Positions 19,422-59,329 of a stretch of 62,627 bases of DNA are shown here, piece by piece. The stretch is taken from NCBI RefSeq assembly GCF_001434815.1, contig NZ_AZDU01000003.1, forward strand, positions 1-62,627, given 5' to 3'. The DNA is from Lactobacillus equicursoris DSM 19284 = JCM 14600 = CIP 110162 (GTDB taxonomy: Bacteria > Bacillota > Bacilli > Lactobacillales > Lactobacillaceae). The position numbers were made by a program, and so were the translations under genes. Numbering within the stretch: the first letter of the stretch is position 1; each line of letters opens with the position of its first letter. Under the pieces are notes generated by a model. It was not told the origin of the DNA and made no database searches. It was given only the letters and a program-made list of their open reading frames with translations.

Positions 19422-19740
19422 GTTGTCTCAACTTGCACAGAAAGTCTGTTTCAGCTGCCCAAAATTGACTCAACTAAATCGATTTTTTTAAAAAAGCTGC
19501 ACACAAATATACTCAAGTAGCCAAGATGCCGGCCCAAAATTTACTCAACTACTTGATTAGAAGGTTCAGTTGAGTAAGATCGTGAGCAATATTTTCGTTA
19601 CTTGAGTAAGCTTATGAGCATCGGTTTGGCTAGTTGAGTAAGTTTATGAGCATCGATATGGCTAGTTGAGTAAGTTTATGAGCAGCTTTTTGGCTAGTTG
19701 AGTCAACTTTTGTGCATGATCAACGGCAGTTGACTGTGCA
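19422..19740. repeat. Repeat array C: orientation-switching, mostly 32-bp period
   Basis: Three inverted cores (ends at 19475, 19517, 19549; spacing 42 and 32 bp) are followed by six forward cores starting at 19569, 19601, 19633, 19665, 19697 and 19729, exactly 32 bp apart. The core is like GTTGAGTAAGTTTATGAGCA. An isolated forward-like core lies at 19422. It shares core start and polarity with arrays A and B. Confidence 0.85.
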
Positions 19741-22736: not shown

Positions 22737-24572
22737 ATGAGTAAAGAAACGATCAAAGCCCAAGCACAAGGGCGCAATGGTGAAATTGATTTTGAAATCG
22801 AAGTCGTTGACCAACAACTGGCTGACTTGAAGGTCACAAAGAGCTCAGAAACCAAGGCCGTCTTTGACCAGGCCTTTGGCAAGCTGCGCGATAACGTCTT
22901 GGCTGCCCAAAGCTTTGACGTTGACGCCATTTCTGGGGCCTCCATCATGACCAAGGCCATTTTGGAATCCGGTAAAAAGGCCCTGGCTGAAAACGGCGTG
23001 CGCCCAGTTGCCCGCAAGGTCGACACCACTCACAAGAACGTGGCCTTGAACGTTGACGTAGCCGTGATCGGTTCCGGGATGGCCGGCCTCTTGGCTGCCA
23101 GCCGCGCCTTGTCCATGGGCAAGAAGGTTGTCGTTTTGGAAAAGAACGGCTACGTTGGCGGGGCCTCCATCTTGAACGGGTCTAACGTTACCGCTACTGG
23201 TTCAAGACTAGCTAAAAAGCTGTTTGGTCCACTGGCAGACCAGGACTCACCAGAGAGACTTTTTAACGACATTACCAAGGAATGCCGGGGTACCAACTAC
23301 CCAGAACTGTCTCACCTTTTGGCCAACAACATCGGCAAGGCCATCGACTTCATTACTGATTTCGCTGACTTGACCTACCAAAAGGCAGAAACTCAAACCA
23401 TTGAACACAGCGTTAACCGTCAAGTGGAAATGCCAAGCCAAAGCTCATACGAAGTTGTAACTAAGGTTGCCAAGGCTTTTGAAGCCAAGGGCGGGATCCT
23501 GCTGACCGACGCGAGAGTGGAAGCTTTGAAGAAGAACGACAAAGGCGTTTTGACCAGCTTGGTGGCTGAAGGCAAGCACCAAACTACGACCGTTAACTTC
23601 AAGTCATTGGTCATGGCTGCCGGCGGCTGGGGCGCTAAGGACTACAAGGAAGGCAAGACTGACATTCCTTACTACGGTCCAATGACCTCAACTGGGGACT
23701 ACTTTACTTTTGCCAAAAATATGAACCTGGCCAGCCGCAACCTGGACTGGTACAAGGTTTACCCACACGGCTTGGAAGTTGAGCCGGGGATTGCCAAGCT
23801 GACCACTTACTCCACCAAGGAAGCCAGCGACATGGGGGCTATTTTTGTCAACCGGGCCGGCAAGCGGGTGGTTAACGAAAGCTTACCATACACCCACTTC
23901 CGCGACGCCATCGCCGCTGAACCAGATAAGACCTGCTTTGTCTTGATGGACCAGCGCATCTGGGACCGCTTCTACGAATTGATGCTGAAGTATGGCTTCA
24001 ACGAAGAAGAAGTGCAAGGCTTCTTTGCTAACGACGGCAAGAAGAGCCCAATTTTGGTCAAGGGCGACCTGGCTGCGGTTGCGCAAAAGGCTGGCGTGGA
24101 ATACGGCAACTTGAAGGAAACTTTTGAAAAGTATCAAGAATATGCTAAAAACGGTGCCGACCCTGAATTTGGCCGGGATGCGAAGTTCCTGCACCCATAC
24201 GAAGGGGACACCTTCTACTTGATCGAACAAAAGCTGCGCTTCTGCACCACCCTGGGCGGCTACGAAGCAACGCCAGAAATGCAGCTGCTAGATGCTGACT
24301 TTAAGCCAGTTGAAAACTTCTACGCAGCCGGCGAAATCGTTGGCGGAGCTAACGGCAAGGACTCTATGCCATCTATGATGAACTCTTGGTCATACGCTTC
24401 TGGCTTCGTGGCCGGGACCGCCGCAGCCGACAACTGCAACAACCGCGAGGTTGATGTGGTGACGAGCGCTAGTGTTGCGCCTGCAGCGCCTAAGGTTGAA
24501 GCAGTGACGGGGGCTAGCCACCACGCTGCTCCGACGCCTAAGCCAGACGCAACCAGCGGAGCCAGCCACTAA
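22737..24572 (+). CDS. FMN/FAD-dependent fumarate-reductase-type enzyme 1
   Basis: 611 residues. An N-terminal FMN-binding domain (about 5-85) ends with DAISGAS, where Ser69 should carry covalent FMN placed by ApbE. Then comes an FAD domain (VIGSGMAGLLAASRAL near 111; late GEIVGGANGKDSMPS). There is no signal peptide and no heme or NADH-binding domain, so it is cytoplasmic with an unknown electron donor. Family members reduce C=C bonds of unsaturated acids (fumarate, urocanate, acrylate, cinnamate). The tail after about 575 is low-complexity and carries TGASH and a final DATSGASH, extra copies of the flavinylation motif. A cre-like site overlaps its promoter. Confidence 0.9.
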   Translation: MSKETIKAQAQGRNGEIDFEIEVVDQQLADLKVTKSSETKAVFDQAFGKLRDNVLAAQSFDVDAISGASIMTKAILESGKKALAENGVRPVARKVDTTHKNVALNVDVAVIGSGMAGLLAASRALSMGKKVVVLEKNGYVGGASILNGSNVTATGSRLAKKLFGPLADQDSPERLFNDITKECRGTNYPELSHLLANNIGKAIDFITDFADLTYQKAETQTIEHSVNRQVEMPSQSSYEVVTKVAKAFEAKGGILLTDARVEALKKNDKGVLTSLVAEGKHQTTTVNFKSLVMAAGGWGAKDYKEGKTDIPYYGPMTSTGDYFTFAKNMNLASRNLDWYKVYPHGLEVEPGIAKLTTYSTKEASDMGAIFVNRAGKRVVNESLPYTHFRDAIAAEPDKTCFVLMDQRIWDRFYELMLKYGFNEEEVQGFFANDGKKSPILVKGDLAAVAQKAGVEYGNLKETFEKYQEYAKNGADPEFGRDAKFLHPYEGDTFYLIEQKLRFCTTLGGYEATPEMQLLDADFKPVENFYAAGEIVGGANGKDSMPSMMNSWSYASGFVAGTAAADNCNNREVDVVTSASVAPAAPKVEAVTGASHHAAPTPKPDATSGASH

Positions 24573-24613: not shown

Positions 24614-24640
24614 CGCCGAATCGTCAGATTCGGCGTTTTT
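24614..24640 (+). terminator. Terminator of flavoprotein gene 1
   Basis: Perfect stem CGCCGAATC/GATTCGGCG, loop GTCA, then TTTTTG. Array A begins 28 bp later. Confidence 0.9.
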
Positions 24641-24667
24641 GTTTTATTTAGCTGTGGGATGGGGTTG

Positions 24668-25679
24668 CCCCCAAAGTATATCAACCGAGCTGGATTTTGG
24701 TAAAAACCGCCCCCAAAGTATGTCAACCGAGCTGGATTTTGGTAAAAGTCTCCCCCAAAGTATGTCAACCGGTCTAGATTTTGACGAAAATCACCCCCAA
24801 AGTATGTCAACCGGTCTGGATTTTGACGAAAATCACCCCCAAAGTATGTCAACCGAGCTGGATTTTGCCAAAAGTCTCCCCCAAAGTATGTCAACCGGTC
24901 TAGATTTTGACGAAAATCACCCCCAAAGTATGTCAACCGGTCTGGATTTTGACGAAAATCACCCCCAAAGTATGTCAACCGAGCTGGATTTTGCCAAAAG
25001 TCTCCCCCAAAGTATGTCAACCGGTCTAGATTTTGACGAAAATCACCCCCAAAGTATGTCAACCGGTCTGGATTTTGACAAAAGTCACCCCCAAAGTATG
25101 TCAACCGAGCTGGATTTTGCCAAAAGTCTCCCCCAAAGTATGTCAACCGGTCTAGATTTTGACGAAAATCACCCCCAAAGTATGTCAACCGGTCTGGATT
25201 TTGGTAAAAGTCACCCCCAAAGTATGTCAACCGAGCTGGATTTTGACGAAAATCACCCCCAAAGTATGTCAACCGAGCTGGATTTTAACGAAAATCACCC
25301 CCAAAGTATGTCAACCAACCTAGATTTTTTGTAAAATCTCCCCCAAGTTGAGTCAACCGCTTTGAGTTGACATAGATTGGGGGCAAAAATCGTCGAAATT
25401 ACAGCTGGTTGACATAGATTGGGGGCAAAAATCGTCGAAATTACAGCCGGTTGACATAGATCGGGGTCAAAAATCGCTGAAATTACAGCCGGTTGACATA
25501 GATCGGGATCAAAAATCGCTGAAATTACAGCTGGTTGACATAGATTGGGGGCAAAAATCATCGAAATTACAGTCGGTTGAGTCAACTCGGGGGCAAAAAT
25601 CGTCAAAATTACAGTCGGTTGACATAGATTGGGGGCAAAAATCATCGAAATTACAGTCGGTTGACATAAAATGGGGGCC
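24668..25679. repeat. Repeat array A: 25 units of 42 bp with one orientation switch
   Basis: Seventeen units read CCCCCAAAGTATGTCAACC plus a semi-conserved 23-bp spacer (24668-25358). Eight units follow in reverse orientation (GTTGACATAGATTGGGGGC) from 25366 to 25679. Units 3-14 show a 126-bp higher-order period of three unit types. Right unit 6 has the alternative core GTTGAGTCAACTCGGGGGC. It fills the gap between convergent genes. Long ORFs on both strands here are by-products of the 42-bp period. Confidence 0.95.
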
Positions 25680-25716
25680 AAGCCAAGCCACCCCCGTCAC
25701 ACCGCCGCCAGCCCAA

Positions 25717-25741
25717 AACAAAAACGCGCCAAACGGCGCGT
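25717..25741 (-). terminator. Terminator of the LysR gene at 25756
   Basis: Stem ACGCGCC/GGCGCGT with loop AAAC; T-run on the minus strand. Confidence 0.85.
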
Positions 25742-25755
25742 CCAACATAGCCAAG

Positions 25756-26676
25756 CTACACCAGCTTGTGCTCGTTATTGTAATGTTTGCGGCAGTACGT
25801 CAGTATGAACGCCTCAAAGCGCGTGACCGCTGGCGTCAAGAAGTGGTTAGCCTTTTTCACGATAAAAATTGGGTGGATGCCCACGTTGTCCTCGATGTGC
25901 AAAAGCTTCACCGTCTTCGGGTCCAGCTGCGGCAGGTGAGGGATCACAGCGACCCCGTAGCCCCAGTGGACGAAGCCAATGATGGTGTGGTCTTCCATCG
26001 TTTCCATAATGATCTTCGGCGTCAAACCGGCATTCTGGAACATCTTGTCCAGCCGCTTGCGCAGCCCGCTCTCCTTGCTGTAGTAGATCAGCGGGTACTT
26101 GGCTAGCTCGGCCAGGCTGACGGAATCCTTTTTAGCCAAAGGATTGGAAAAAGGCACCGCCGCCAGCATTTCCTGGTCCACCAAGTGGGTGATGGTTACT
26201 TCTTCTTCCAAGGCCGGCGTGTTCGGTGCTGAGGAAACGACCAAGTCCAGGTCGTCGTTGACCAGCTTTTCCACCAATTCCTCCGTCGTCCCTTGCACAA
26301 AGGAGAAGGAAATGTTCTCGGTGTCCGGCTCTTGCTTAAACTCGTAGATCAGCTGCGGGATCAGGTCCTGGCCCATGGTAAAAGTAAAGCCGACCCGGAT
26401 GTGGCCCCGGTTGATGTCTAAAAGCTCTGCGATGTACTCGTTGCCCTGATCTAGGTCGTTCAGGCCGCTTTTAACGTATTCCAGGTAAATCTTGCCGTAA
26501 TTGGTCAAGCGGATGTTGCGCCCGTTTTTTTCAAACAGGGGTACGCCCAATTCCTCTTCAATGCTGCTGATGGCATAGGACAAGGAAGGTTGTGAAATGC
26601 CTAATTTTTCCGCCGATTTGGCCATGTGCTCTGTCTTTGCTAGCTCGACAAAAAAGCGCAGGTGCCGAATATTCAT
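25756..26676 (-). CDS. LysR-family regulator divergent from the aroE1 operon
   Basis: 306 residues; N-terminal winged helix (MNIRHLRFFVELAKTEHMAKSAEKLGISQPSLSYAISSIE) and co-inducer domain. It faces the shikimate dehydrogenase operon, with a CATA-N7-TATG operator candidate 29 bp upstream of its own start. It most likely controls the aroE1-MFS-aroD operon in response to a pathway compound such as quinate or shikimate; the effector is inferred only from context. Confidence 0.88.
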   Translation of the reverse strand: MNIRHLRFFVELAKTEHMAKSAEKLGISQPSLSYAISSIEEELGVPLFEKNGRNIRLTNYGKIYLEYVKSGLNDLDQGNEYIAELLDINRGHIRVGFTFTMGQDLIPQLIYEFKQEPDTENISFSFVQGTTEELVEKLVNDDLDLVVSSAPNTPALEEEVTITHLVDQEMLAAVPFSNPLAKKDSVSLAELAKYPLIYYSKESGLRKRLDKMFQNAGLTPKIIMETMEDHTIIGFVHWGYGVAVIPHLPQLDPKTVKLLHIEDNVGIHPIFIVKKANHFLTPAVTRFEAFILTYCRKHYNNEHKLV

Positions 26677-58248: not shown

Positions 58249-58395
58249 TTAAGGGATGTAGATGAGCAGGACTGCGAAGGCAGCGAGCAAGATAATGGAA
58301 ACGATGGTGTAGCCTTTTTTAAACTTGGGCGAAACGGCGGGGCTAGCGTCGATTTCTATAGTGCGCACGGTGATGTGCAGTAGCGAGTTTTTCAT
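58249..58395 (-). CDS. Small single-helix membrane protein
   Basis: 48 residues: a soluble start (MKNSLLHITVRTIEIDAS), then KFKKGY and one hydrophobic helix to the end (IVSIILLAAFAVLLIYIP). GGAG with five bases spacing makes the ATG at 58395 convincing. Its frame stays open upstream through array B, but the ribosome site shows where the gene begins. Family not recognised. A promoter would have to lie between array B and 58395, or within the array. Confidence 0.6.
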   Translation of the reverse strand: MKNSLLHITVRTIEIDASPAVSPKFKKGYTIVSIILLAAFAVLLIYIP

Positions 58396-58444: not shown

Positions 58445-59329
58445 CCCCCAAAGTATGTCAACCGGTGTGGATTTAGTCGGAAATTGCCCCCAAAGTATGT
58501 CAACCGGTGTGGATTTAGTCGGAAATTGCTCCCAAAGTATATCAACCGGCTGTGATTTAGGCGGAAACCGCCCCCAAAGTATGTCAACCGGTGTGGATTT
58601 TGGTCGAAATTGCCCCCAAAGTATGTCAACCGGCCTGGATTTAGGCGGAAAAAGCCCCCAAAGTATGTCAACCAGCCTGGATTTAGGCGGAAATCGCCCC
58701 CAAAGTATATCAACCGGCTGTGATTTGGACGGAAATCACCCCCGAAGTATGTCAACCGCTCTGGATTTAGGCGGAAGTCGCCCCCAAAGTATGTCAACCG
58801 GCCTGGATTTAGGCGGAAATTGCCCCCAAAGTATGTCAACCGGCCTGGATTTAGGCGGAAATTGCCCCCGAAGTATGTCAACCAGCCGGGATTTAGGTGG
58901 AAATTGCCCCCAAAGTATATCAACCGGCTGTGATTTAGGCGGAAATTGCCCCCAAAGTATATCAACCGGCTGTGATTTAGGCGGAAATTGCCCCCGAAGT
59001 ATGTCAACCAAACTTGGTTGAGTCAACTTGGGGGCGAAAAAGCGGAAAAAAGAGCCCGGTTGAGTCAACTCGGGGGCAAAAAAGCGGCAAAACGAGCCCG
59101 GTTGAGTCAACTTGGGGGCGAAAAACTGCAACCCCCATCCCGGTTGAGTCAACTCGGGGGCGAAAAACGGTAAAACCCATCCCGGTTGAGTCAACTCGGG
59201 GGCAAAAAAGCGGAAAAAAGAGCCCGGTTGAGTCAACTCGGGGGCAAAAAAGTGGAAAAATCATCCCGGTTGAGTCAACTTGGGGGCGAAAAACGTCAAA
59301 CCCCATCCCGGTTGAGTCAACTCGGGGGC
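58445..59329. repeat. Repeat array B: 22 units of 42 bp with one orientation switch
   Basis: Fourteen units of CCCCCAAAGTATGTCAACC type (58445-59009, spacers near GGTGTGGATTTAGTCGGAAA) are followed by eight reversed units with core GTTGAGTCAACTCGGGGGC (from 59016). Same period, polarity and right-half unit number as array A. It fills the gap between convergent genes. Open frames on both strands here are by-products. Confidence 0.95.

Follow-up and report, generated by a model that had tools for sequence, protein, structure and literature searches.

Iteron plasmid replicons, such as those of F with RepE, R6K with pi and the Lactobacillaceae plasmid pRV500, carry sites of 19-22 bp as phased direct repeats, together with an inverted copy and an adjoining gene for a winged-helix initiator, and in the P1 and F replicons rep is flanked by iterons. 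Among the extragenic repeats of chromosomes, the REPIN/RAYT and BIME systems have a candidate partner protein, RAYT being a Y1 transposase that acts on hairpins. The present analysis deals with array A, a block of 42-bp repeats in the chromosome of Lactobacillus equicursoris DSM 19284, within a stretch of 62,627 nucleotides (contig NZ_AZDU01000003.1, hereafter the window). Array A is probably a chromosomal iteron-like array bound by a fusion protein, NERD-Rep3, a reading based on the anatomy and phasing of the arrays, their linkage to and co-occurrence with NERD-Rep3 genes, and the fold assigned to the protein.

Two further systems are comparable. STAR elements of Staphylococcus are also intergenic GC-rich direct repeats with locus-specific spacers and local growth or shrinkage, but they have a 14-bp motif, from which the core consensus found here differs by eye, and neither a known partner protein nor facing halves appear in the part of their description available (PMC3532100). 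The Rep-like initiator RctB of Vibrio chromosome 2 likewise has two kinds of chromosomal sites, according to the portion of the source consulted (PMC6090056).

Anatomy and helical phasing of the arrays

Array A consists of 17 units in one orientation, starting at 24668 and then each 42 bp up to 25340, which face eight units in the opposite orientation starting from 25365 to 25659. These positions agree with the sequence-only reading, which had described 17 units one way, eight the other way, a single flip and a 42-bp spacing, as well as a convergent intergenic gap: the array lies between the terminators of an oxidoreductase gene (plus strand) and a LysR-type gene (minus strand) that face each other. 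The cores of 15 of the 17 forward units are exactly CCCCCAAAGTATGTCAACC, a single change distinguishes the first unit, and the innermost belongs to a second type, CCCCCAAGTTGAGTCAACC. In the usual layout of this family, called T, the two facing halves are of the T1 (CCCCCRAAGTATGTCAACC) and T2 (CCCCCRANTTGACTCAACC) kinds. The eight opposing units of array A had been read as the same core reversed, which was correct for their orientation but not for their sequence, since their core is a diverged version (CCCCCAATCTATGTCAACC in three, near variants in four and CCCCCGAGTTGACTCAACC in one) with other spacers, resembling by eye those of T2 halves. A T2-side half with T1-like cores and T2-like spacers was seen by eye in four arrays (A, L042, C97 and C132). 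The spacers of array A are variants of one another, organised in 126-bp higher-order repeats that also span its forward half, in line with the earlier view that it is not a CRISPR.

In the host genome (G000; 2,052,598 bases in 182 contigs) the core was found 234 times at up to three mismatches, compared to 0 for the same pattern read backwards, so its occurrence is beyond chance. Counting segments with at least three units or at contig ends, and leaving out arrays of fewer than three units, 29 array segments were obtained, 18 of them with an intact centre (two in the window) and 11 being contig-end fragments that may pair up with one another. Among 363 same-strand T steps in the G000 loci fetched, 335 measured 42 bp and 12 measured 41 or 43 bp; five steps of 32 bp came from sister-type units, and only 11 were multiples of 42, indicating that few units were missed. 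The centre was constant, with 25 bp from start to start in all 22 T centres recognised by the scan (18 in G000 and four in G062, a second genome of the genus), the 6-bp gap being invariant in spacing but variable in its letters. Another centre (L013) scored 67 because the scan missed one unit and is 25 by eye, whereas a value of 208 (L020) joined two sister-family matches and is not a T centre.

The claim that cores are conserved while spacers drift was supported by comparing half-array consensus sequences, with core divergences of 0.06 (T1) and 0.11 (T2) against spacer divergences of 0.37 and 0.32, respectively; as the scan demands TCAA or CAAC at fixed positions, this core conservation is partly built in. 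The T-tract beyond the scanned core is 93-99% conserved.

A sister family, S, has cores homologous to those of T, and S arrays abut T arrays in several gaps (L020, L024, L025, L027, L028, L031 and L038). Its 152 same-strand steps measured 31-33 bp (121), 41-43 bp (26) or 62-65 bp (5), and its 20 centres measured 28 bp in 13 cases, 60 in six, where one unit was probably missed by the scan, and 48 in one. Because S steps are of 32 or 42 bp, one helical turn apart and never between, the spacing follows helical turns; together with the 42-bp T steps, this supports the helical phasing proposed from the sequence alone. The S array of the window is flanked by two minus-strand genes, and thus not by a simple convergent gap.

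Known structured RNAs and RNA hairpins or terminators were considered and rejected. Three Rfam matches at E values up to 1 were all far under the gathering scores, and half-arrays folded no better than shuffled sequences (z of -0.34, -0.01 and -0.90), although the centre did (z of -3.87). In REPIN/RAYT the protein acts on hairpins, and the candidate protein here is instead an initiator-nuclease.

NERD-Rep3 as the candidate partner

NERD and Rep3_N domains occur together in the product of a gene that lies 168 bp away from a T array. When 75 genomes of the genus were searched, 19 had a match, but near-full-length genes were present only in G000 (four), G062 (two) and G092 (two), and all three genomes carry arrays. 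Seven of these eight genes, encoding Rep3 WH1-WH2 initiators, have an array within 170 bp; in the eighth, from G062, a transposase ORF separates the gene from a T array. The arrays beside these genes use different cores (families T, S, U, V, W and X), the array nearest to the X-linked gene being weak. In the V family the gene lies between facing half-arrays, and at one locus an array-gene-array arrangement in G092 corresponds to a single solo array in G000. The T-linked gene region (L045:1536-4523 and L011) is 97.9% identical between two species, compared to 73-82% at the other loci compared, which points to its recent horizontal exchange.

The protein has no family in PADLOC or NCBIfam, its matches to solved structures by sequence were at E 0.07 or worse, and searches of viral contigs and phages gave no relative and one weak match to the Rep part, respectively. 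By blastn, the gene-bearing stretch had no match in the plasmid collection and array A none in the phage or plasmid collections; among viral contigs, no stretch had the exact core and two fitted a looser centre pattern, about what chance would give by estimate. Nothing on these arrays or on the fusion was found in open-licence papers, one of which, in the part available, has both "NERD domain" and "iteron" in unrelated places.

The arrays share with iteron replicons the phased direct repeats, at about 19-22 bp per site (19-bp cores here), the inverted copy (all 22 T centres) and, for gene-linked arrays, the adjoining initiator gene; no NERD-Rep3 gene adjoins array A itself, and the gene search lists none on its contig. 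Unlike those plasmids, the arrays are chromosomal, scattered over many loci and up to 35 units long, with an initiator fused to a NERD nuclease. A 9-mer, TCAAGTAGG, common to the pRV500 iteron (L185:550-649) and S units may be a chance likeness.

A cooperative DNA-binding protein, as suggested from the sequence, is supported as the likely partner of the arrays, and NERD-Rep3 can now be named as a candidate. The 19-bp core (CCCCCRA-N6-TCAACC, with the T-tract 9 bp further) would be the site for one Rep3-type winged-helix initiator monomer, and the two facing cores at the centre are reminiscent of an inverted operator bound by a Rep dimer. Steps of whole turns would place all monomers on one face of the helix, allowing cooperative binding and perhaps handcuffing, in which arrays pair with each other. 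NERD-Rep3, the binder proposed here, combines a PD-(D/E)XK-type nuclease domain with a plasmid-type initiator, each paralog presumably matching its own array type. Gene and array may together be a plasmid replicon-control module taken over by the chromosome, with arrays kept where the bound protein would do least harm, between convergent genes. The nuclease might nick the DNA and drive local tandem growth, which fits the turnover of the arrays, or might act on replicons whose iterons match; the parts are compatible with both handcuffing and plasmid exclusion. As a tentative extension, these proteins could form a new class of system in which initiator-nuclease fusions, each with its own chromosome-wide iteron arrays, police or exclude replicons with matching iterons through incompatibility and cleavage, or bridge distant convergent gaps by handcuffing.

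Several observations weigh against binding by NERD-Rep3. The period of 42 or 32 bp differs from the 22 bp of the plasmids compared, and gene-adjacent U arrays have halves pointing apart, opposite to T. The protein at L184 has no Rep3 match in Pfam and the arrays there are short and weak. Although S arrays are numerous in G000, none of its genes is close to the S-linked gene of G092, and the corresponding locus holds a solo array; G084, a genome 67% complete, has S arrays with no NERD-Rep3 match. One short T array survives in L. delbrueckii DSM 20074, which lay outside the gene search.

If NERD-Rep3 does bind the arrays, iteron biology would no longer be confined to the copy control of plasmids but would include chromosome-wide arrays, and several protein-array pairs would be diverging side by side in one genome, a natural series from which site choice by Rep winged helices could be read. 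A STAR-like intergenic repeat family, of a kind whose function has long been obscure, would gain a partner protein, and anti-plasmid, handcuffing and selfish readings would become directly testable.

Distribution among genomes and alternative explanations

When 84,980 species genomes were scanned for the exact core, one place in L. delbrueckii DSM 20074 matched, as did four stretches of a record carrying the label Faecalicatena absiana YH-C36a. The latter record (L011, L012, L014 and L015) is the same assembly as G062, which is placed in Lactobacillus, the genus of the window, so the label looks wrong. A three-fold 42-bp pattern matched eight of the 75 genus genomes, although on reading T arrays were present only in G000 and G062; S arrays were found in three (G000, G092 and G084).

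The sequence-only reading expected the core at the same locus in related strains and a rule of period and orientation among its copies. The former did not hold for array A, which is absent from its gap in G092, where the genes are about 150 bp apart, and likewise in DSM 20074, whose oxidoreductase gene has decayed; the LysR gene of G062 also has no array beside it, but its neighbour gene is different too. The genes flanking a second T array of the window, array B, are present in G062 and G092 without it. In contrast, copies elsewhere obey a strict rule of period and orientation, and some are shared in place across species: one G000 array has both flanks in DSM 20074 (97% and 90% identity), with 2+2 units there, and another is common to G000 and G062 by one flank (72-82%), with 12+23 and 8+9 units, respectively. 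At the array B locus of G062 (L158, contig C1, around 1640-1720) two S-like remnants 42 bp apart were seen by eye.

Such presence or absence between species at many loci would also be expected of a family of selfish or mobile repeats, such as REPIN with RAYT or miniature inverted-repeat transposable elements, whose protein copies arrays to new loci. This explanation, which we regard as possible though not favoured, is consistent with the array-gene-array and solo forms of one locus, the gene between facing half-arrays and the unusually similar T-linked gene region. However, the longest exact match between different G000 arrays is 49 bp, compared to within-array repeats of up to 348 bp, which points to local growth and shows no trace of recent copying from one locus to another, and no target duplications were recognised by eye.

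It is unlikely that the arrays are host insulators or elements of chromosome structure, at which another nucleoid protein would form boundaries or roadblocks between convergent genes, the adjoining NERD-Rep3 genes being incidental. Their placement agrees with such a role: 35 of 40 array sides face the 3' end of a gene (P = 7e-7 against one half), and the 12 arrays with both sides known comprise nine in convergent gaps, three in co-directional and none in divergent ones, gene sides being called by an ORF heuristic with Pfam checks for part of them. Nevertheless, avoidance of promoters and genes would yield the same placement. In G000 the T1-to-T2 polarity tracks the main direction of genes (229 of 329 genes, permutation p 0.002; 22 contigs, L074-L096 plus the window, the polarities of C97 and C132 being assigned from spacer type) and the 4-fold GC skew (p 0.012), but not the AT skew (p 0.73), and only two of four arrays agree in G062; replication polarity is therefore not claimed as a rule. 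The linkage of genes to arrays of matching core type also speaks against insulators, as does the absence of arrays A and B from their neighbourhoods in two relatives each, so that no invariable host function can be attached to these gaps.

A STAR or VNTR (variable number tandem repeat) type of inert repeat, grown by slippage without a partner protein, would account for the locus-specific spacers, the variable unit number and the long within-array repeats, and STAR elements behave likewise in what was available of PMC3532100. This is very improbable, as slippage by itself does not account for the constant 6-bp centre with variable letters (22 of 22), the jumps of one helical turn between steps or the greater conservation of cores than spacers between loci. 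Remains of an IS21- or Mu-type transposon, whose repeated terminal transposase sites would have outlasted its body, were first considered for their similar anatomy (in the part of PMC10122671 available, IS21 ends also hold direct repeats at a distance of 23 bp, made of two GC-rich parts around an AT-rich middle) and dropped as hardly credible, since no IstA exceeded the cut-off in G000, G062 or G060, IstB-family (AAA) matches in G000 were weak or partial, with two over the cut-off and none on a contig where an array end was read, and the constant centres argue against random internal deletions.

Gene neighbourhood of arrays A and B

The features of the window are listed in the table below. The LysR gene beside array A is 78% identical to its counterpart in L. 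delbrueckii DSM 20074, and array B sits in a convergent gap, with an MFS transporter gene on one side and an M48 peptidase gene on the other.

Coordinates of the arrays and neighbouring features in the window
Feature	Position	Strand	Remarks
Array A, forward half	24668..25358	+	17 units, 42-bp period; innermost unit (25340-25358) T2-type
Array A, centre	25359..25364	.	6 bp between facing halves
Array A, reverse half	25365..25677	-	8 units, 42-bp period, diverged cores
FAD/FMN-binding oxidoreductase gene	22737..24572	+	fumarate-reductase-like; left neighbour, reads into array A
LysR-type regulator gene	25756..26676	-	right neighbour, reads into array A
Intrinsic-terminator-like hairpin and T run	24614..24643	+	left (oxidoreductase) gene; read from sequence
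Intrinsic-terminator-like hairpin and T run	25714..25742	-	right (LysR) gene; read from sequence
S-family array	19457..19720	.	halves face each other; 32- and 43-bp steps
Array B (T family)	58445..59328	.	14 T1 and 8 T2 units face each other across 6 bp

On the outer flanks of many T arrays, a G/T-rich stretch lies within the 20-50 bp that separate the terminator of a gene from the array start. In the interval from the MFS gene to array B, a small ORF for a hydrophobic peptide of about 48 aa was noted by eye on the minus strand (58254-58394).
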